Part shown: positions 31,676 through 42,564 of the stretch, in pieces
Layout: every line of letters begins with the position of its first letter
How positions within the stretch are numbered: position 1 is the first letter of the stretch
Origin: Opitutales bacterium
Lineage (GTDB): Bacteria > Verrucomicrobiota > Verrucomicrobiia > Opitutales > UBA2995
Direction of reading: 5' to 3'
Length of the DNA: 64,000 nucleotides
Assembly (NCBI GenBank): GCA_022824405.1
Contig: JAJDZZ010000074.1
Coordinates: forward strand, 62,001 to 126,000
Notes under the pieces: model-generated
What the model saw: the letters and a program-made list of their open reading frames with translations, nothing else
Databases searched by the model: none
What the model was told of the DNA's origin: nothing
Translations under genes and position numbers: made by a program

Positions 31676-32329
31676 ATGTCCACCATATTTCCCAAAAAGG
31701 CCAATAAGGTTCCCGCCCAGGTCGTCATTGCCCTGTTGCTGATGGGGGGAGCCTTGACCGCGGGTATCACCTATTATTTTACCCCCAAATATTCGCGGGT
31801 CGGGTATCAGCCCATCCAACCCGTCCCCTTTGAGCATTCCCTGCATGCCGGTGAACTGGGCATCGATTGCCGCTACTGTCACAACCACGTGGATAAATCG
31901 GGCCATTCCAATGTGCCCTCCACCAATACCTGCATGAATTGTCACAACCAGATCCAACTGGCCAGCGATAAACTGGAACTCGTGCGCGCCAGTTTCGCCA
32001 CGGGCGAGCCCATTCCCTGGGTGCAGGTACACAAACTTCCCGATTATGTCTATTTCAACCACTCCGTACACGTCAACAGGGGCATAAGTTGTTACGAATG
32101 CCATGGCCAAGTCGACGAGATGGATGAGGTTCATCACGTAAAACCCTTCAGCATGGCCTTTTGCCTGGATTGCCATCGCCATCCCGAGAAAAAACTCCGC
32201 CCCCTCGAGGAGGTGTTCAATCTCGATTGGCGGCCTGAAAGCGAGGAGGCTCAACTCGAATACGGTAGCGAAGCAAAGGAGGCCTGGAAGGTAAATCCGC
32301 CAGTGGGATGCGCCGGGTGCCATCGATGA
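31676..32329 (+). CDS. actA: Alternative complex III subunit A, pentahaem cytochrome c
   Basis: ActA carries haems that take electrons out of ACIII on the periplasmic side. The 217-residue product has an N-terminal membrane segment (about 13-33) and exactly five CxxCH motifs: CRYCH (65), CMNCH (86), CYECH (139), CLDCH (163) and CAGCH (212, at the very end). Extra histidines (FEHSLH, YFNHSVH) can serve as distal ligands. The stop overlaps the actB start by ATGA. It is the first gene of a ten-gene run on one strand ending at 42564. Confidence 0.93.
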   Translation: MSTIFPKKANKVPAQVVIALLLMGGALTAGITYYFTPKYSRVGYQPIQPVPFEHSLHAGELGIDCRYCHNHVDKSGHSNVPSTNTCMNCHNQIQLASDKLELVRASFATGEPIPWVQVHKLPDYVYFNHSVHVNRGISCYECHGQVDEMDEVHHVKPFSMAFCLDCHRHPEKKLRPLEEVFNLDWRPESEEAQLEYGSEAKEAWKVNPPVGCAGCHR

Positions 32330-35300
32330 AGAAGATCCTGATACATCCGGAACCGACGGATTCCGACCTGCGGGGCCCTCATTATTGGAGGAGCCTGGAC
32401 GAGTTGGCCGATACCCCCGGGTTTCAAGCCTATCTCCAGCGCGAATTTCCCGAGGGTGCGGCGGAGCTCAGAGGTGTGAACCGCCGCCACTTTCTCAAGG
32501 TCATGTCTGCTTCCTTTGCCTTTGCCGGGGTGGGACTGGCGGGTTGCAGGCGTCCGGAAAAGTACGTCTTGCCTCATTCGCAACATCCCGAGGAAGTCGT
32601 CCACGGCAAACCGCTTTACTACTCCTCCGCCATGCCCCATCGCAACGACCCGGTTCCGCTGGTGGTGGAAACCAACGAAGGACGGCCCACAAAAATTGAG
32701 GGAAATGACCGTTTGCCGGGCCGCAACGGTTCGACCGATCAGTATGCCCAGGCTTCTATTCTCGACCTTTACGATCCCGATCGCTCAAAAAAGACCATTT
32801 TGAGAAACCGGACCCTCACGGTGGCGGAGCGAACCGAATACTTGGCCGGAATTTCCCGGAAGTACTCCGAAAACGAGGGAGAGGGATTGGCATTCCTGGC
32901 CGAGGGCCAATCCTCCGTGACCCGCACTTTCCAACGCGGGCAACTGCGAGCCAAATTTCCCAAGGCCGCCTGGTTCGAATACGACCCCGTCGATACTTCC
33001 AATCCTGAAAAAGCGGCCCGAAAAATTTTTGGCAAACCGGTTCGGGCCATTTACGATTTTTCCAGGGCACAGCGCGTGCTCTCCCTGGAAGCCGATTTTC
33101 TCTACAGCGATCCCAACCATCTCGTTTATACGCGGGATTTTGCCAAAGCCCGGCGGGTGGAGGACGATGAGCCCACCATGAACCGGCTCTACGCGGCCGA
33201 GTCCTACTACTCCATAACCGGCGCGGCGGCGGATCACCGCCTGCGTGTGGCGTCCAGCGACATTCCCATCCTCACCGCCATGTTTATGGCGGAGGTCCTT
33301 GCCGCGGCGGGCATCGCTTCCCAGGATGAGGAAGCTTTGCGGGCTCTGGGCAAGGCTCCGACCGTGGACGAGCAGTGGGTGCGGGAATGTGCCCGGGATC
33401 TCTACGACCATGCCGGAGAGGCTTTGGTCGTGGCGGGGCCCCACCAACCTCAATCCGTGCACGCCATGGCAATGGCCATGAACGCGGTGCTGGAAGCTCC
33501 CGGGAGAACCCTCAAATACATCGATATTCCGGAAAGCGATGCCGCTACGCTTTCAGACTTGGCTTCGGATATCGAAGCCGACCGGGTCAAAACCCTGGTC
33601 GTTCTCGGCGGCAACCCGGTCTATGACGCCCCTGTCGACCTGCACTGGGACGAGGTTCAGGAAAAGGTCGAGGAGGTGGTCCGCCTGGGTCAATATTTCG
33701 ACGAAACTTCCGAACGGTCCGATTGCCACATCAACGCGGCCCATTATCTGGAGAGTTGGGGGGATGCGGTGGCCTACGACGGGACCGTTCTGCCTATCCA
33801 GCCCATGATTCTCCCCCTGTTTCGGGGACTCACCGAGAGCGAAGTTTTGGAATTGATCGTCAATGGTGAGCCCAGGGAGGGATATGACATCGTTTTCGAT
33901 GCCGTCACTCAGACGCTGGGAGGCGGTCGAAAAGAATTTGAAAAGTTCCTGCACGACGGATTCTGGGCCGGGACGACCGGTAGCGGCGTTTCCGTGCGCA
34001 TTAGCGCCGCCGCCGCCCGCGATTTGGCCATGTCCGGGGGGATTGTCCCCAGCAACCTCTCCTCCTCCCGACTGGAATTGCGCTTTATTCGGGATCCCAG
34101 TCTGGACGACGGCCGATTTAACAATAACGGCTGGTTGCAGGAATGCCCCGACCCCGTGACCAAGCTGACCTGGGACAACGCCTTTTTGATCAGCCCGAAG
34201 CTTTCCCATGAACTGGGAACCACCGCGGCTGATCCGTTGGTGACGGTGGTGCGCAAAAACCCCAATGCCCACAAGCGGGGCAGGGAACAGGGCCGATTGA
34301 TCGAGATTACGGTTAACGGAAAAACCCTGCGCGGTCCGGCCCACGTATTGCCCGGCCTTCCGGACTATACCGTGGTGGTATCCCTCGGTTACGGGCGTTC
34401 CGTCACGGGACGCATCGGACAAGGGAGCGGCATCAACGCCTACCGTCTGCGTTTTGCCGATGGCCTTTCCGTTAATACCGGAGTTGCCGTAACCCGGGTG
34501 GACGGGGTTCGGGAACTGGCCAATACACAGGAGCATTGGTCCATGGAAGGTCGCGCCATCATCCGTGAAGCCAATATCGATTACTACCGCAAGAGCCCCG
34601 ACTTTGTCGATCGCATGGGGATGGAAGCGCACTCCCCGCCTCCCTTGGGACTGGATGAAGACGGCGGCAACCGTCGCGACACCGTTGGTCTGTTGGAACG
34701 CTCCATTGCCGGTAAAGCCAACCGGGGAAATTCCGCTTATGTCACCCCCGCATTTACGGGCGATCACCAGTGGGGCATGTCGATCGATCTGAATACCTGT
34801 ACGGGTTGTAATGCCTGTGTCATTGCCTGCCAGTCCGAAAACAATATCCCCATCGTGGGCCGCGAGCAGGTGCTGCGCGGCCGGGAAATGCATTGGATCA
34901 GGCTCGATCGCTACTATTCGGCCAGTCCCCATTTGGGCAAGGCAGACATGCCGGAGAACCCCCAGGTCTCGATTCAGCCCATGACGTGTCAGCATTGTGA
35001 AACCGCGCCCTGCGAATCGGTGTGCCCGGTCAATGCCACCGTGCACGACGAAGAGGGCCTCAATGTAATGGCCTATAACCGTTGCGTGGGCACACGTTAT
35101 TGCGCACAGAATTGTCCCTACAAGGTGCGCCGTTTTAATTTCTTCGATTGGAACGACCGCGACCGCGACAGGGTTTACCAGGGACCTCTAGGACCACGGG
35201 GAATGGAGGAAATCCGCAAGATGGTCCAGAATCCCGAGGTGTCCATGAGAATGCGGGGGGTCATGGAAAAGTGCACCTATTGCGTACAACGCATCCAGGC

Positions 35301-35640
35301 GGCCAAGATCGAGCAAAAGGTGAAAGCGGCCGATTCGGGCGATATCAAGGTTCCCGATGGAACCATTAAGACGGCTTGCCAACAGGTCTGTCCGGCCGAG
35401 GCCATTGTGTTTGGCGATATTTCGGACCCGGATTCCCAGGTTGCCACTCTGAAAAACTCCAATCGCGACTACGGGGTTCTGGCCTATTTGAACACTCGTC
35501 CGCGCACCACCTACCTGGCCAAGCTGCGCAATCCGAACCCGCTCATGCCGGATTATTACGACAATCCCCTGAGCTACATGGAATACAAGGCCGCCAGCGG
35601 GCCCTCCGGACACTCCGGTGGAAAGGAAGAGGACCATTAA
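32326..35640 (+). CDS. actB: Alternative complex III subunit B, fused oxidoreductase-like and iron-sulfur protein
   Basis: ActB of 1104 residues combines a molybdopterin-oxidoreductase-like domain (about 80-800, without an evident cofactor Cys) with a ferredoxin-like domain. A twin-arginine export signal (NRRHFLKVMSASFAFAG, RR at 53-54) precedes a possible lipobox LAGC. The Fe-S cysteines are in CTGCNACVIAC (825), CQHCETAPCESVC (888), CVGTRYCAQNC (920), CTYC (983) and CQQVC (1018). Thr replaces one Cys in the third group, which fits three [4Fe-4S] and one [3Fe-4S] cluster as in known ACIII. It would sit on the periplasmic face, passing electrons from quinol to ActA. Confidence 0.94.
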   Translation: MKKILIHPEPTDSDLRGPHYWRSLDELADTPGFQAYLQREFPEGAAELRGVNRRHFLKVMSASFAFAGVGLAGCRRPEKYVLPHSQHPEEVVHGKPLYYSSAMPHRNDPVPLVVETNEGRPTKIEGNDRLPGRNGSTDQYAQASILDLYDPDRSKKTILRNRTLTVAERTEYLAGISRKYSENEGEGLAFLAEGQSSVTRTFQRGQLRAKFPKAAWFEYDPVDTSNPEKAARKIFGKPVRAIYDFSRAQRVLSLEADFLYSDPNHLVYTRDFAKARRVEDDEPTMNRLYAAESYYSITGAAADHRLRVASSDIPILTAMFMAEVLAAAGIASQDEEALRALGKAPTVDEQWVRECARDLYDHAGEALVVAGPHQPQSVHAMAMAMNAVLEAPGRTLKYIDIPESDAATLSDLASDIEADRVKTLVVLGGNPVYDAPVDLHWDEVQEKVEEVVRLGQYFDETSERSDCHINAAHYLESWGDAVAYDGTVLPIQPMILPLFRGLTESEVLELIVNGEPREGYDIVFDAVTQTLGGGRKEFEKFLHDGFWAGTTGSGVSVRISAAAARDLAMSGGIVPSNLSSSRLELRFIRDPSLDDGRFNNNGWLQECPDPVTKLTWDNAFLISPKLSHELGTTAADPLVTVVRKNPNAHKRGREQGRLIEITVNGKTLRGPAHVLPGLPDYTVVVSLGYGRSVTGRIGQGSGINAYRLRFADGLSVNTGVAVTRVDGVRELANTQEHWSMEGRAIIREANIDYYRKSPDFVDRMGMEAHSPPPLGLDEDGGNRRDTVGLLERSIAGKANRGNSAYVTPAFTGDHQWGMSIDLNTCTGCNACVIACQSENNIPIVGREQVLRGREMHWIRLDRYYSASPHLGKADMPENPQVSIQPMTCQHCETAPCESVCPVNATVHDEEGLNVMAYNRCVGTRYCAQNCPYKVRRFNFFDWNDRDRDRVYQGPLGPRGMEEIRKMVQNPEVSMRMRGVMEKCTYCVQRIQAAKIEQKVKAADSGDIKVPDGTIKTACQQVCPAEAIVFGDISDPDSQVATLKNSNRDYGVLAYLNTRPRTTYLAKLRNPNPLMPDYYDNPLSYMEYKAASGPSGHSGGKEEDH

Positions 35641-35658
35641 CCACCCCGTTTGCAGGAT

Positions 35659-37101
35659 ATGGCATTCTCTGAGCAGTTTTCATTAGAAGGAAAGTCGGGT
35701 GGTTCCCCCAAGGTGCTGGACCGGGTCGAACCGGCCCGCATGCCCAGGCTCCCCCTGGTTCTGAACAACCGCAGCTTCTCTTGGATCACCGATAAAGTAT
35801 GCGGTATCGTGGAGGAAAAGACACCCCTCTGGTGGTGGATCGCTTTTTGCTGTTCCGCTTCCCTGGCCGGCTTTACCGCCGTAGGCCTGACTTATCTGGT
35901 CTCAACCGGTGTGGGGGTATGGGGACTATCCAATCCAATCAACTGGGGTTGGGCTATCGTCAACTTCGTTTTCTGGATCGGTATCGGCCACGCCGGAACC
36001 CTGATTTCCGCCATATTGTGCCTGCTCAAGCAAAAGTGGCGCACGACCATCAACCGGGCGGCCGAGGCCATGACCATATTCGCCGTGGCCTGCGCCGGCA
36101 TCTTCCCTGTATTCCACATCGGAAGGGTCTGGTTTGCCTGGTGGTTGTTTCCCCTTCCCAACGCCAATGCCATCTGGCCCAATTTCCGCAGCCCCTTGTT
36201 ATGGGATGTTTTCGCGGTATCCACCTACGCCACCGTTTCGGTTCTCTTCTGGTACGTGGGGATGATCCCCGACCTGGCCACGGTGCGCGACCGCGCCAAA
36301 ACCCTGTTCCGAAAAGTTTCTTACGGCATCTTGGCCATGGGCTGGCGCGGGTCCAACCGCAATTGGAGCAATTACGAAATGGCCTACCTGTTGCTGGCCG
36401 GCCTCTCCACCCCACTGGTCCTTTCCGTCCACACAATCGTATCCTTCGACTTCGCCGTTTCCCTCATCCCCGGTTGGCACACCACCATCTTTCCACCCTA
36501 TTTCGTGGCCGGCGCTATTTTCTCCGGTTTCGGTATGGTGCTGACCTTGATCATCCCTCTGCGCGCCATTTACGGTCTGCACGACCTGATCACCCAGTCC
36601 CACATCGATTGCATGTGCAAGATCACTTTGGCCACCGGAACTATCGTGGGGTACGCCTATTCCATGGAGTTCTTCATTGCGGCCTACGGTGCCAATCCCT
36701 TCGAGATATTTGCCTTTATCAACCGGGCCTTCGGCACCTATGCCTGGGCCTACTTCATCATGTTCTCCTGCAACGTGATCGTCCCGCAGTTGTTCTGGTT
36801 CAAATATATCCGGGAACGCCCCCACGTGGTTTGGATTGTTTCGATCCTGGTCAACGTGGGTATGTGGTTTGAGCGTTTTGTCATAGTGGTGACTTCTTTG
36901 GCCCGCGATTTTCTTCCCTCCAGTTGGGGATACTATTCTCCCACGCTGGTGGATATCTTCACCTTTTTCGGCACTTTCGGCTTCTTCGCCACCCTGTTCC
37001 TACTATTCGTCCGGTTTCTTCCCCTCATCGCCGTGGCCGAAGTGAAGGCCGTAACCCCTCAAGCCGACCCCCATCACTACCGAGGCAAGCACCACGCATA
37101 G
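35659..37101 (+). CDS. actC: Alternative complex III subunit C, NrfD-like quinol-binding membrane protein
   Basis: ActC has about ten membrane segments in 480 residues and belongs to the NrfD/PsrC family. Recognisable parts are [25 protein letters not shown] (quinol-site region), [17 protein letters not shown] and [20 protein letters not shown]. It would oxidise menaquinol or ubiquinol at the periplasmic side and feed ActB. The ATG at 35659 is used; a TTG at 35650 is also possible because the AGGA at 35654 is too close to the ATG to decide. Confidence 0.94.
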
Positions 37102-37113
37102 GATTTATTCAAA

Positions 37114-37650
37114 ATGGCCCGCACTGACATATTTGGCTTGGCAGCCGACTTTGCCAACCCAGGGGTATTGATGGACGCCGCCCATCGTTGCCGTGAGAAG
37201 GGATTCGAGAAGTGGGATGTCATAACCCCCTTTCCCGTGCACGGGTTGGATGAAGCAATGGGGTTGAAACGGTCCCGCGTGCCATTCTTCACTTTCGTGG
37301 GTGGAGCTATCGGGTTTGCCACCGGCACCTTTATGGCTTGGTACATGAATGCCTTCGATTATCCCATTATCGTGGGGGGCAAGCCTTTCTTCAGCCCCAT
37401 TTTTCCCTTCCCGGTAATGTATGAATTGACCATTCTCCTGGCCGCCTTGTCCACCATCCTGGGCATGTTTCTGCTGAATGGTTTACCCATGCACTATCAC
37501 CCGGTGATGAAGGCGAAGCATTTTGCCTCCACCACCGACGATACCCTGCGCATCGCCATCGAGGCATCAGATCCATTGTTCGACCTGGAAGGGACGCGGG
37601 CTTTTCTAAGAGAAATTGGCGGGGCCAATATACAGGAGTTGGAGAATTGA
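37114..37650 (+). CDS. actD: Alternative complex III subunit D (DUF3341)
   Basis: The 178-residue product starts with a cytosolic DUF3341 segment (FGLAADFANPGVLMDAAHRCREKGFEKWDVITPFPVHGLDEAMG). Two membrane segments follow (about 62-82 and 97-125). ActD has no cofactor and stabilises the membrane part of ACIII. The gap to actC is 12 bases and the stop nearly touches actE. Confidence 0.93.
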   Translation: MARTDIFGLAADFANPGVLMDAAHRCREKGFEKWDVITPFPVHGLDEAMGLKRSRVPFFTFVGGAIGFATGTFMAWYMNAFDYPIIVGGKPFFSPIFPFPVMYELTILLAALSTILGMFLLNGLPMHYHPVMKAKHFASTTDDTLRIAIEASDPLFDLEGTRAFLREIGGANIQELEN

Positions 37651-37652
37651 CC

Positions 37653-38261
37653 ATGAAGTATTTCTACGCCTTCTTCGCCCTGGCTATTCTCGCCACCTTG
37701 TCCATTTTCGGCTTTCGCGGGGACAAGTCCACCAAACCTCCCTTCATCATTTTCCCCGACATGGACGACCAGTCCAAATTCAAACCGCAGGGATCGAGTC
37801 CGTTTTTTGCCGATGGACGCACCGACCGTCTCCCGGTGCCGGGGACGGTGGCCCGCGGTTTTCTGAGGGAGGACGACCATGCCTCTTATGGAAAGGACGG
37901 GGAGGAATGGGCTCGGGGTTTTCCCATGGCCGTCGATCGGTCGGTTCTCGATCGCGGTGAAGAGAAGTATGGAATTTATTGTGCGGTTTGCCATGGGGGA
38001 ACCGGGGATGGCAACGGGGTGACCAAATCGCGCGGCATGTTGGTAACCCCGAGCTTCCACGACGACCGGTTGCGGGATATGGCCGAGGGAGAAATTTTTA
38101 ATACCCTGACCAACGGCAAGGGATTGATGGGTTACTACCGGGACAAGTTGTCGGCGCCCGACCGATGGGCTGTCATTGCCTACATGCGGGTCCTGCAGCG
38201 GTCTCAGAATGGTACCATCGATGACGTTCCACCCTCGGCCCGAAAGGAGTTGGGACTGTGA
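37653..38261 (+). CDS. actE: Alternative complex III subunit E, monohaem cytochrome c
   Basis: ActE is a 202-residue membrane-anchored cytochrome with one hydrophobic segment (residues 3-21) and a single CAVCHGG haem site (near residue 110). Mets in GLMGYY and elsewhere are possible distal ligands. It would pass electrons from ACIII to a downstream acceptor. The ATG at 37653 follows a GGAG stretch at the correct distance and is preferred to the TTG at 37647. Confidence 0.92.
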   Translation: MKYFYAFFALAILATLSIFGFRGDKSTKPPFIIFPDMDDQSKFKPQGSSPFFADGRTDRLPVPGTVARGFLREDDHASYGKDGEEWARGFPMAVDRSVLDRGEEKYGIYCAVCHGGTGDGNGVTKSRGMLVTPSFHDDRLRDMAEGEIFNTLTNGKGLMGYYRDKLSAPDRWAVIAYMRVLQRSQNGTIDDVPPSARKELGL

Positions 38262-39514
38262 ACGGCCAAGCCACAACCACGGGGGCCATGGTGGCGTCTC
38301 CTGGCAGGAAGGACTGGTCCAAAATTGTCCTGAGCGCGGGAATCCTTTTCCTGGCCCTGTCCTTTTTGGGGATCTGGCTGGGCTTCGTCCGGGGCGATGC
38401 CCGCCCGGCCTACGGAGTGCTGATCATGTTTTCTTTCTACCTCAGCATCGGGTTGGGTATGCTTCTGCTAATCATGCTTCACCACTTGTTTGGCGCTGGC
38501 TGGTCGGTCATTCCGCGCCGTCAGTTGGAGCATGGAATCACCATATTTCCCTGGTTGGGCCTGATTTTTATTCCCTTCCTCCTGATTTCCTACCTGACCG
38601 CGGTGGAGGATCAGGGATTTATCTGGAAGTGGTTCAACGAGAATGCGGTGGCCGACGACGTTCTATACCAGAAGAAGAAGTGGTGGTTGGGAGAAACTTT
38701 CTTCCTCATCCGCTATTTCATCTATTTCGGCGGTTGGATCCTGATCGCCTCCAAATTGCGCCAGTGTTCCCTGCAGCAGGATGAGGACGGTGATCCCAAG
38801 TGGTCCCGTGCAGGCGCCAAATGGTCCGCCTTCGGCATCGTTTTTACCGCCCTCACTTTGTCGGGGGCATCCATCGACTGGATCAAGGCCCTCGAGTTCC
38901 ATTGGTTTTCCACCATGTACGGGGTCTGGTTCTTCTCCGCAAGCATGCGGGCCGCTCTGGCCGTCACCGTTTTGGCCTGTCTCTTCCAAGTTTACAAAAA
39001 TGGCCCGTTGACCGGTCTGTTCAAAACGGGCCACCTCTACGACCTGGGTTGCATACAGTTGGCCTTTACCGTGTTTTGGGCCTACATCTCCTTTTCCCAG
39101 TATTTCCTCATCTACAACGCCAATATACCGGAAGAAACCTTCTGGTACGTCATGCGCGAACAGGGGGCCTGGTGGTGGGTGAGCATGGGGCTCATTTTCG
39201 GGCACTTCCTTTTCTCCTTTTTGTTTCTTTTGTTTTACCGGAACAAGATCAAGGCGGGGCCAATGATTTTCATTTCCCTTTGGGTGCTTGTTTGGCACTT
39301 GGCCGACCTCTACTTCAATATCCTCCCGTCCAAGCGATTGGACTACGATATGTACATTTCCTATCCCTTTTCCGTGACCCTTTGGGACGTAACCGCATTT
39401 CTCGGTATCGGAGCCATCTGCGCCTGGTCCTTTATGCGCAGTTGGAAGGGATCGCAACTAATCCCCATCCGGGACCCCCGCATCACCGAATCCTTGCAGC
39501 ACCATGGCCGTTGA
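38258..39514 (+). CDS. actF: Alternative complex III subunit F, membrane protein
   Basis: ActF of 418 residues has about ten membrane segments in a layout related to ActC, but without quinol-site acid residues that I can identify. Landmarks are RRQLEHGITIFPWLGLIF, FLIRYFIYFGGWIL, GASIDWIKALEFHWFSTMYGVWFF and a C-terminal DMYISYPFSVTLWDVTAF. GTG at 38258 overlaps the actE stop (GTGA). Its last 11 bases overlap the following small gene. Confidence 0.92.
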   Translation: MNGQATTTGAMVASPGRKDWSKIVLSAGILFLALSFLGIWLGFVRGDARPAYGVLIMFSFYLSIGLGMLLLIMLHHLFGAGWSVIPRRQLEHGITIFPWLGLIFIPFLLISYLTAVEDQGFIWKWFNENAVADDVLYQKKKWWLGETFFLIRYFIYFGGWILIASKLRQCSLQQDEDGDPKWSRAGAKWSAFGIVFTALTLSGASIDWIKALEFHWFSTMYGVWFFSASMRAALAVTVLACLFQVYKNGPLTGLFKTGHLYDLGCIQLAFTVFWAYISFSQYFLIYNANIPEETFWYVMREQGAWWWVSMGLIFGHFLFSFLFLLFYRNKIKAGPMIFISLWVLVWHLADLYFNILPSKRLDYDMYISYPFSVTLWDVTAFLGIGAICAWSFMRSWKGSQLIPIRDPRITESLQHHGR

Positions 39515-39797: not shown

Positions 39798-39806
39798 TAG
39801 TTATTC

Positions 39807-41285
39807 ATGACGGTTATCGGTCCATCGCCCCAACCACCATCGAGGGATGCCCATGGCGCATCCCGCCTCAGCGCCGAGATTGCGGAGGTCGACAGATCGA
39901 TACGGTTGCCTTTCCTGTTTTTTATTCTGAGCGGTTGGGTCTGGTTGCTGGCGGCATCCTTTTTCGGGTATTTGACGTTTTGGAAGGCTCATAACCCGGA
40001 GTTTTTAAATGCTCAGGCCTGGATCTCCTTCGGGCGGGTTGCGCCAGCTTTCAACGCGATGCTGGTCTATGGCTTTGCCTGTAATTTCGCCTTTGGGCTC
40101 GGTCTTTGGATTGTCAGCCGCCTCGGTCGTGTTCCGGTCCGTTACCCCATCTTGCTCGCGGTGGCGGCCATTTTCTGGAACGGTGGGGTCAATATCGGGA
40201 TTTTCGGAATCCTGCGAGGCGATTTGAATGTCTTCGATTATTTCGAGCTTCCCGGCTATGTGGCCCCGATTATCCTGGCCGGTTTGCTCTTTGTGTCGGT
40301 TTGGGTGATTTTGGCCTTCATCAATCGCCGGAGCGACGCGGTCTATGCCGCCCAATGGTACTTGGTGGCCGGATTTCTGGCTTTTCCCTGGATTTTCCTG
40401 ATAGCGGCGGCGATGCTTTTTGTCTATCCTACGGCAGGGGTTTCCCAGCCCCTGGTGGCCAATTGGTATGCCGGCAGCCTGCTCTGGTTGTGGTTCGGTT
40501 CCGTTGGAGCGGCCCTCCTCTATTACCTGATTCCCAAGTTGTCCGGAAAACCGATTCTGGCCTACGACCTGGCCCGGTTCGGTTTCCTGGCTCTGGTTCT
40601 GGCCGGCGCCTGGACCGGAACGGCGCGTCTGTCAGGAGGTCCGTTTCCCGCTTGGATTATTACGGTTGGAATTGCCTCAGGGTTACTCCTGCTGGTGTTT
40701 TTTCTGATTACCGGAATCAATTTTCTCGGCTCCATGAGTTCGGCCCCGGGCGCCCTTTCCGGCAATACCGTCTTGCAGTTTGCCTTTGTCGGATCGCTTT
40801 CCCTTCTCCTTTCCGGTTTGGCTTCGGCCTTGCTCCCCCTGAGGAGCATTAACGAGGTGGTTCAATTTACCATTGTCGGGGAGGCCCGGCATTTCCTCCT
40901 CCTCTATGGATTTTTCAGCATGGTGGCTTTTGCCGGGGTCTACTATGCTCTTCCCAGAATTCTTCAGCAGGACTGGCCCATGGCCTTCATGATACCGGCG
41001 CATTTGTACACCGCTGTGATCGGGCTGCTCCTGGTGGTCTTTCCTCTGGCATTGGGAGGCTGGAATCAAGGCGTGGCCCTGAACGACCCCTCCATTCCCT
41101 TCGCGGAGGTCGTTAGAACCGCCACCGTCTGGATGTTGGGCCGATCTCTGGGCTGGCTCTTTATAATTTTCGGTCACCTGGCTTTCAGTCTGAACTTGGT
41201 CCTCATTCTGGTGGAAAAATGCAAATCGGTTTGCTGCCCGGATAGAGATTATGCCGAAGCGGTGAAGGAGGGTGTTGGATCATGA
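39807..41285 (+). CDS. CcoN-like haem-copper oxidase subunit I homolog lacking metal ligands
   Basis: This 492-residue protein has about 12 membrane segments and aligns by eye with cbb3 oxidase subunit I (CcoN). The landmarks are FGRVAP-F-N-AML, NWYAGS, LLYYLIPK, QFTIVGE and GVYYALPR. Positions that should be metal ligands are replaced: helix II haem b His by Phe82, helix VI CuB His by Gly223, the helix VII His pair by Ala273-Arg274, and the helix X His-x-His by Gly/Ala (358 and 360) or Glu/Arg depending on register. Only five His remain (16, 62, 362, 399, 457), none clearly at a ligand position. The reading frame is intact, so this is not a decaying pseudogene. It cannot be an oxidase by itself. 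A role as membrane scaffold for the two following cytochromes is inferred. Confidence 0.85.
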   Translation: MTVIGPSPQPPSRDAHGASRLSAEIAEVDRSIRLPFLFFILSGWVWLLAASFFGYLTFWKAHNPEFLNAQAWISFGRVAPAFNAMLVYGFACNFAFGLGLWIVSRLGRVPVRYPILLAVAAIFWNGGVNIGIFGILRGDLNVFDYFELPGYVAPIILAGLLFVSVWVILAFINRRSDAVYAAQWYLVAGFLAFPWIFLIAAAMLFVYPTAGVSQPLVANWYAGSLLWLWFGSVGAALLYYLIPKLSGKPILAYDLARFGFLALVLAGAWTGTARLSGGPFPAWIITVGIASGLLLLVFFLITGINFLGSMSSAPGALSGNTVLQFAFVGSLSLLLSGLASALLPLRSINEVVQFTIVGEARHFLLLYGFFSMVAFAGVYYALPRILQQDWPMAFMIPAHLYTAVIGLLLVVFPLALGGWNQGVALNDPSIPFAEVVRTATVWMLGRSLGWLFIIFGHLAFSLNLVLILVEKCKSVCCPDRDYAEAVKEGVGS

Positions 41286-41905
41286 AACAGTTATTCACCC
41301 TCTTCCTGCTCGTGTTTGCCGGTGTGGCTTGTTCCTGGGTTTGCCTGCTCCTGGTCGGTTCGGGTGAGCTTTCCGCCGGAAAACTGGAAACCAGCCTGAC
41401 CGTGGCAGGAGATGATGTCGTATTGGAAACGGACCTCGGATTGGCCGCGCGGGGGAAACAGGTCTACCGCGAATTGGGATGCGTGCAATGCCATACCCAG
41501 CAGGTTCGCCGACCGGGATACGGAGGGGATCTGGAACGTGGATGGGGATCCCGTCAGACTGTGGCCCGCGACTATGTCCTCCAGGACCTCGTGGCGCTGG
41601 GAAACCGCCGCATCGGTCCGGACCTGGCCGATGTCGGTTCGCGACGGGATGCCGAATGGTTTTACCGGCATTTGTACGACCCCTCCTCCTTGGCCGATTG
41701 GTCGACCAGTCCTTCTTATGCCCACCTTTTCTACGACAAGGAAGTGACCGATGAAACCTCTCCCACCGCCTTGAAATTGGAGGGAAACGATGCTCCCGAC
41801 CCAGGTTTTGAGCGGGTGCCCAATTTCGATGCCAGAGCTTTGGTGGCCTATCTGGAAAGCCTCAAGCTGGATTACGATCTCCCTGAATCCAAACGGGTAA
41901 AATGA
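41282..41905 (+). CDS. CcoO-like monohaem membrane cytochrome c lacking the distal Met
   Basis: The 207-residue product has an N-terminal membrane helix (about 4-26) and one haem site, CVQCHTQ (67-73). It is followed by QQVRRPGYGG and RRIGPDLADVG, as in CcoO of cbb3 oxidases. The usual distal ligand motif S-x-M-P-x-Y reads STSPSY (141-146), with Ser143 in place of Met. The protein contains no Met at all besides the initiator. His148, just after that motif, is the obvious substitute and would give a lower-potential haem. The gene overlaps its CcoN-like partner (4 bases) and the next cytochrome (ATGA), so the three are made together. Confidence 0.85.
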   Translation: MKQLFTLFLLVFAGVACSWVCLLLVGSGELSAGKLETSLTVAGDDVVLETDLGLAARGKQVYRELGCVQCHTQQVRRPGYGGDLERGWGSRQTVARDYVLQDLVALGNRRIGPDLADVGSRRDAEWFYRHLYDPSSLADWSTSPSYAHLFYDKEVTDETSPTALKLEGNDAPDPGFERVPNFDARALVAYLESLKLDYDLPESKRVK

Positions 41906-42564
41906 TGAGCGACGACGACCGGAAACTGGCCCGAAAGGACTTGATAGCAGACGCGGATCTGGCCTCCTTCAGCCGTGGGCAGAGCCCTGGTCCGGTCCGA
42001 GTTACCGCCTACTTGGCCATGATCTTCATCCCCATAATTTCCGTTCTTTACCTTTGGAGGTATTCGGCTGGTTTTGATTCGCAGCAATATTGGGAAAGGA
42101 GCGAGATCGCGGAGCAAATCGCCGCCCTCGGCGGTTCTTCAGCGGACGGTTCGCAGGACTCCGTGGAAGTCGTATTCGACCCGATCAAGGAGGGCAGGAA
42201 AATTTACCAAACCATCTGCATGGCCTGCCACCAGGTCAACGGTCAAGGTTTACCCGGCGCTTTCCCACCCCTGGCCGAGTCTGCCTGGGTGGAGAAAAAC
42301 CCCGCCTTGTTGGCCCGCATTGTCCTGCATGGTCTTCATGGTCCCATCACCGTCAATGGTACGGCGTACAATAGCGTGATGGCCCCTTTGGGCGCCGTAT
42401 TGAGCGACGAGCAAATCGCCCTGGTCCTCACCTATGTGCGCCAGGAGTGGGGCAACGCGGGCAGCGCCGTGGAGACCGACGTGGTAGCCCAGGCCCGCAA
42501 CGAATCGAGCGGGCGCGCCGCCATGTGGACGGTAGAGGAATTGGCTCCCTGGGATACCAATTGA
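41902..42564 (+). CDS. Membrane-anchored monohaem cytochrome c (CcoP-like position)
   Basis: The 220-residue protein has a hydrophilic N-terminus, one membrane helix (about 34-53) and a single cytochrome c domain. The haem site is CMACH (106-110) and Met160 in YNSVMAPLG is the likely distal ligand. Canonical CcoP has two haems and this has one. By order and topology it takes the CcoP place behind the CcoN-like and CcoO-like genes. It is the last gene of the ACIII operon. Electrons might pass from it to soluble cytochrome c or an oxidase encoded elsewhere. Confidence 0.88.
   Translation: MMSDDDRKLARKDLIADADLASFSRGQSPGPVRVTAYLAMIFIPIISVLYLWRYSAGFDSQQYWERSEIAEQIAALGGSSADGSQDSVEVVFDPIKEGRKIYQTICMACHQVNGQGLPGAFPPLAESAWVEKNPALLARIVLHGLHGPITVNGTAYNSVMAPLGAVLSDEQIALVLTYVRQEWGNAGSAVETDVVAQARNESSGRAAMWTVEELAPWDTN

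Follow-up and report, generated by a model that had tools for sequence, protein, structure and literature searches.

A CcoN-fold protein without metal ligands behind alternative complex III, and the probable parallel decommissioning of an ACIII-linked oxidase in Verrucomicrobiota

Haem-copper oxidases are defined by six histidine ligands. In a verrucomicrobial genome (96% complete), a gene resembling that for subunit I of cbb3 oxidase (CcoN) lies behind an operon for alternative complex III (ACIII), and a prediction made from the DNA alone had proposed that its product has lost every metal-ligand histidine that could be placed and is kept as a membrane scaffold for two c-type cytochromes. The locus therefore raises two questions: whether the protein is indeed an oxidase subunit emptied of its metals and, if so, why the gene has been kept. 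We analyzed the whole 64,000-nucleotide stretch of DNA that holds the locus (the window, on contig 72 of the genome) together with related genomes. The window contains a complete ACIII operon with actABCDEF in order (31676-39514), which continues on the same strand through a small gene (orf97), ccoN, ccoO and a cytochrome c gene (cytC) as a single block with short gaps and overlaps (Table 1). Coupling of ccoN to its neighbours was confirmed, with distances of 4-11 bases: orf97 overlaps actF by 11 bases, 9 bases separate orf97 from ccoN, and the ccoN/ccoO and ccoO/cytC junctions each overlap by 4 bases. The next gene 3' of cytC is unrelated and on the opposite strand. Both of the c-type cytochromes that had been foreseen are encoded directly behind ccoN, one as a CcoO-like and the other as a CcoP-like monohaem protein. 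No family match was found in Pfam or NCBIfam for ActF or Orf97. The C-terminal motif of Orf97 in the window and its homologues follows the pattern G-W-V-D...V-R-I-P-I-x-x-A-M-E-L-T, and at one other locus (L062:8038-8832) this motif is fused N-terminal to an extra monohaem cytochrome c.

Table 1. Genes and intergenic features of the act-cco block in the window
Feature	Position	Strand	Basis
actA-like multihaem cytochrome c of ACIII	31676..32329	+	Pfam Cytochrome_C7/Cytochrom_CIII; operon position conserved in ~90 loci
actB, iron-sulphur subunit, 1110 aa	32308..35640	+	Fer4 domains; operon tree built from ActB and ActC
actC, NrfD-like membrane subunit	35650..37101	+	Pfam NrfD 3e-22
actD	37114..37650	+	Pfam ActD 5e-65
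actE, monohaem cytochrome c	37647..38261	+	Pfam Cytochrome_CBB3 2e-12
actF, membrane subunit	38258..39514	+	act operon position; upstream of every ACIII-linked ccoN studied
orf97, small single-TM protein, 97 aa	39504..39797	+	C-terminal motif 'YGWIDEEKGVVRLPISRARQLF' conserved; in live and dead loci
9-base gap between orf97 and ccoN	39798..39806	+	site of ccoS/FixS (65-75 aa) in live relatives; ccoS absent here
Ligand-less CcoN-like subunit (P0001), ATG start, 492 aa	39807..41285	+	profile, structure and alignment matches
CcoO/FixO-like monohaem cytochrome c, CQQCH	41282..41905	+	Pfam FixO (PF02433) 3e-19
CcoP-like membrane-anchored monohaem cytochrome c (cytC), CMACH	41902..42564	+	Pfam Cytochrom_C 4e-11, Cytochrome_CBB3 5e-9

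The reading frame of the CcoN-like protein, P0001, is open, and its fold was examined by profile, sequence and structure searches. The protein matched Pfam COX1 (E = 2e-32, 113 bits, cut-off 35), scored 81 bits on the ccoN model TIGR00780, below the equivalog cut-off of 583, and matched the solved cbb3 CcoN chains 9g6b, 8smr and 3mk7 (E = 5e-16 to 2e-13). A single-sequence AlphaFold model was poor (pLDDT 52, pTM 0.35) and was replaced by a model from a three-sequence alignment (mean pLDDT 65, pTM 0.70). When this model was compared with the PDB using Foldseek, the top seven matches were cbb3 CcoN chains (E = 1e-11 to 3e-10, TM ~0.72), with NO reductases and other oxidases ranking after them; P0001 is homologous to the CcoN fold across its full length. 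Ligand columns were assigned in a MAFFT alignment with 115 family members and 3mk7 and, independently, in a profile-profile alignment (hhalign) that set the family of the window protein against canonical cbb3 sequences from its order, and the two agreed. All six ligand histidines are replaced (Pseudomonas stutzeri residue first): those of low-spin haem b (H60 to F82, H347 to F363), of CuB (H207 to G223, H257 to A273, H258 to R274) and of haem b3 (H345 to R361), as is the catalytic tyrosine of helix VII (Y251 to G267). The original prediction was accurate at each of these sites, having named Phe82, Gly223, Ala273 and Arg274, non-histidine residues at both helix X positions (R361 and F363) and a missing helix VII tyrosine. 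Its count of five histidines in all 492 residues was also right; one of them, H362, falls between the ligand positions of helix X and matches neither of the two. A scan of genome contigs found two relatives. A same-genus homologue (from an 'Opitutia bacterium' metagenome-assembled genome) is 87% identical and has all seven replacements too; because of this shared set of replacements and a dN/dS of 0.22 between the two genes, a pseudogene was excluded. The window gene thus encodes an intact CcoN-fold protein without its metal ligands.

Matches to P0001 were found in 61 of 88 relatives belonging to the order and class of the window genome and in 126 of 388 genomes sampled from the phylum, counts whose weaker matches include canonical cbb3. 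For comparison we assembled 115 distinct actF-linked homologues from Verrucomicrobiota, calling a copy live when all six histidines and the tyrosine are kept and dead when zero to four of the six histidines remain. This analysis revealed 39 live and 76 dead copies, and none with five histidines. Live copies typically carry the motifs RSAHLNA, WFAHNVL, FYNWAGVHHLIG and VGHAHHG and score only ~220 bits on TIGR00780 (cut-off 583), which marks the ACIII-linked family as a separate lineage alongside canonical CcoN. The presence of a ligand-complete, CcoS-equipped version at the same operon position in many relatives had not been foreseen. The ligand-poor form always follows actF, as all 76 copies examined lie behind this gene, and homologues read away from ACIII were all ligand-complete. 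Among the latter, L053 (G030:C93) is a CcoN near the family with its own ccoS and without ACIII genes, and its genome carries a dead copy linked to ACIII as well; more divergent ligand-complete C-type-like subunit I lineages also lie outside ACIII operons (L063 in G040, and L182 and L183 in family f49).

One or two ligand histidines survive in some dead copies, and L040 (G052) retains four of the six. In L161 and L162 (family f31) both low-spin haem b positions (H60 and H347) are kept and the CuB and haem b3 ligands are gone; these copies could bind a low-spin haem b and may represent an intermediate stage that holds a single haem b. Retention of this kind would suit a dead form that stays redox-active with changed cofactors, either a single low-spin haem on residual histidine or other haem ligands. 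We regard this as improbable for the class: the window protein retains no ligand histidine, the dead forms share no conserved alternative His/Met pair, and the loader gene ccoS is gone in all dead loci.

FixS/CcoS is the cofactor-loading (assembly) protein of cbb3 oxidases. Every live locus encodes a FixS/CcoS protein of 62-104 aa between orf97 and ccoN, and these genes match Pfam FixS, mostly above the cut-off. All 39 live loci carried ccoS, and none of the 76 dead loci had an intact copy (Fisher P = 1e-31, uncorrected for kinship). On a tree of ActB and ActC, all eight independent contrasts on well-supported (starred) branches agreed (sign test P = 0.008). No ccoS was found in the act operon of the window, and a search of the window genome with PF03597, a short model that misses some live copies too, detected no FixS. 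At the ccoS position beside a ligand-poor ccoN in G014 there is an open frame of 61 aa (L073:3177-3362) that resembles ccoS weakly, matches no Pfam family and appears to be a decaying ccoS remnant. Loss of ccoS is a second, independent mark of the dead state.

We also examined selection on the dead copies. Between the window and its same-genus relative, ccoO had the same dN/dS as ccoN (0.22), with values of 0.14 for actF and 0.06 for actC; seven further pairs of dead ccoN gave 0.05-0.24. These data uphold the earlier claim that selection keeps the gene. Live ccoN pairs had lower dN/dS than dead pairs, and dead genes evolve faster than live ones, indicating that constraint on the dead form is relaxed but not absent. 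Of 136 positions that are near-invariant in live copies, 34 fall below 35% in dead copies, foremost the ligands and the residues around them, and 44 are conserved in both classes. Faster evolution and the loss of ccoS are what would be expected if the dead gene were a decaying relic with no role, persisting only by lying between needed genes of one transcript. This explanation has little probability in view of the low dN/dS in all eight dead pairs, the 44 positions still conserved and the open frames of all 76 dead copies, though several dead lineages have diverged to ~35% identity; moreover, ccoN has never been deleted, whereas ccoS in the same stretch was.

The history of the loss was reconstructed on two trees. 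On the ActB and ActC tree, which was built without CcoN, the live/dead state requires 12 changes, at least eight of them forced by starred branches, and 19 losses are implied if losses are irreversible. A CcoN tree of a 37-row subset, inferred under a site-mixture model with all ligand columns excluded, rooted among live forms and required five changes (four forced), with dead forms arising among live ones. A single dead clade was recovered in 0% of bootstraps, and constraining all dead forms together lowered the log-likelihood by 101 and was rejected (AU P = 1.6e-5). The most similar live CcoN came from the protein's own family for L121 with f10 (0.61), L035 with f24 (0.53) and L036 with f13 (0.50). 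Grouping of live and dead f13 CcoN as one clade was not rejected (P = 0.29), and a single event of transfer or replacement may have occurred in f13.

A FastTree of all CcoN, calculated without a mixture model, placed the live copies in one late clade and the dead copies as a basal grade; given the mixture-model tree and the AU test, this topology was rejected as long-branch attraction. Left uncorrected, it would favour a ligand-less ancestor into which live CcoN-CcoS modules were later brought by transfer. We consider such an origin very improbable, since outgroup cbb3 and the closest relative outside ACIII operons (L053) are all live, the root of the mixture-model tree falls among live copies with one dead clade rejected, several of the dead proteins are similar to live members of the family they belong to, and a dead locus (G014) holds the ccoS remnant. 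The ligands have been lost independently, many times, although the exact number of losses is uncertain. Together with the live, CcoS-equipped version at the same operon position in many relatives, this pattern indicates repeated loss of an ACIII-linked oxidase.

The cytochromes beside the dead subunit have kept their haem c sites, with CxxCH present in 72 of 72 CcoO and 75 of 75 CytC proteins checked. Seven dead-locus CcoO proteins have two CxxCH motifs, and the ccoO-like gene beside some dead ccoN (L054-L056 and L058-L060, families f2 and f18) encodes ~370-430 aa compared with the usual 210-250. A purely structural or regulatory subunit of ACIII, padding or stabilizing the membrane domain (as a dimer interface or a lipid or quinone site, for example) without electron transfer, the cytochromes acting alone, would fit the constant position behind actF and the absence of any remaining metal site, and ACIII already contains the cofactor-free membrane subunits ActC and ActF. 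We hold this to be unlikely, as ccoO and cytC with their haem c motifs are always kept alongside and FixO-type proteins are built around CcoN.

To see where electrons might go, we turn to the other oxidases in these genomes. Among 30 relatives that carry a dead copy, 29 encode another haem-copper oxidase, and the remaining one, G042, is a draft assembly of 410 contigs. Three genomes that carry the live form (G012, G016 and G081) encode no other haem-copper oxidase and no cytochrome bd, and because it is their sole haem-copper oxidase, the live form very probably works as a terminal oxidase. In 16 dead loci from other families of the class, an A-type coxA gene lies directly behind cytC, which places the dead block between ACIII and an A-type oxidase; this gene order is the strongest hint at the electron-accepting partner. 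The window genome has its A-type oxidase operon (C67) on another contig, not beside the act operon.

Taken together, these data make it likely that a cbb3-like oxidase linked to ACIII was repeatedly put out of service, and that its membrane subunit has stayed on without metals as a scaffold for two c-type cytochromes, which hand the electrons of ACIII to another oxidase. The ancestor would have been a catalytic cbb3-like subunit I belonging to ACIII, and both its ligands and ccoS have disappeared, independently in many lineages, with ccoN, ccoO and cytC retained. The dead CcoN, predicted from its residues to carry no haem b, would form a metal-free membrane body of 12-14 helices that docks both c-type cytochromes at ACIII; the invariable linkage of the genes points to a complex of CcoN, CcoO and CytC with ACIII. 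Quinol electrons would then flow from ActB, ActA and ActE through the haem c of CcoO and of the CcoP-like protein to another terminal oxidase (A-type), so that electrons that once passed from the CcoO haem c to haem b would now exit via the c-haems. The non-catalytic part of the original prediction stands, with the fold kept, all ligands lost, the gene under selection and two cytochromes behind it; the scaffold role itself, which we infer, is plausible and better supported than could have been known from the window alone.

Family f30 carries particulate methane monooxygenase (pMMO) genes, and its ACIII-adjacent copies (L181, L184 and also L211-L214) are ligand-poor, with 6-7 histidines in all and no CcoS. 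At these six loci an A-type coxA lies directly behind the ligand-less ccoN locus. The other haem-copper proteins in the six genomes are of other types, judged from their motifs. A statement in one review (PMC8498564, citing Refojo 2010) places a C-type oxidase beside ACIII only in verrucomicrobial methanotrophs and Opitutaceae, and the ACIII-adjacent cbb3 of the methanotrophs has been linked to high oxygen affinity (PMC6688271). The operon type is identical to that of the window. In contrast to the functional, high-affinity enzyme reported (PMC8498564, PMC6688271), the f30 copies are ligand-poor and without CcoS, and the 'cbb3 oxidase' encoded next to ACIII in methanotrophic Verrucomicrobiota is of the dead type. 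The broader proposal, that metal-free hubs wiring ACIII to an A-type oxidase arose in parallel and that the 'cbb3' of methanotrophs and most Opitutaceae-like bacteria is a pseudo-oxidase that does not reduce O2, seems to us evenly poised between right and wrong.

Sequences that lack the six histidines were filtered out in a reference classifier of haem-copper oxidases (PMC3084760), so that a ligand-less family falls outside such surveys by design; no published description of a ligand-less subunit I family was found in the open-access literature. If our reading is correct, a central respiratory enzyme has been repeatedly emptied of its cofactors yet kept, with loss of the loader gene as an independent marker, and in many Verrucomicrobiota it seems to have become a structural component of the respiratory chain. 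Metabolic reconstructions would also need correction, as genomes scored for a high-affinity cbb3 beside ACIII have a ligand-less copy there, including those of methanotrophs whose high oxygen affinity was explained by that cbb3 (PMC6688271). The live, remnant and dead loci would provide a natural before-and-after series for how ACIII hands on its electrons. The finding is larger than first stated: a phylum-wide, parallel decommissioning of an ACIII-linked oxidase, with the loader gene lost each time.

The closest known system is the cbb3 oxidase itself, as the window shares with CcoN/FixN (3mk7, 8smr, 9g6b, 6xkw) the fold, an alignment across the full length and the order ccoN-ccoO-cytochrome, and with the oxidase complex a FixO-type monohaem subunit with CxxCH (PF02433, E = 3e-19). 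It differs in the absence of the six histidines, the tyrosine and the CcoS assembly gene, all of which are common to the live relatives. The ActB1 domain of ACIII is a molybdoenzyme homologue without the molybdenum cofactor. Like the dead CcoN, it has the fold of a former redox enzyme that a respiratory complex has retained without catalysis; the two folds are unrelated, and ActB1 reflects a single ancient loss, whereas CcoN was emptied on several occasions. In the ACIII-caa3/aa3 supercomplexes of Rhodothermus and Flavobacterium, the ACIII gene cluster is likewise coupled to an oxidase, and electrons are transferred directly without a soluble cytochrome (PMC5928083, PMC8552683). The partner in those supercomplexes is a catalytic A-type oxidase, whereas here a dead C-type body lies in between, with or without coxA behind it.
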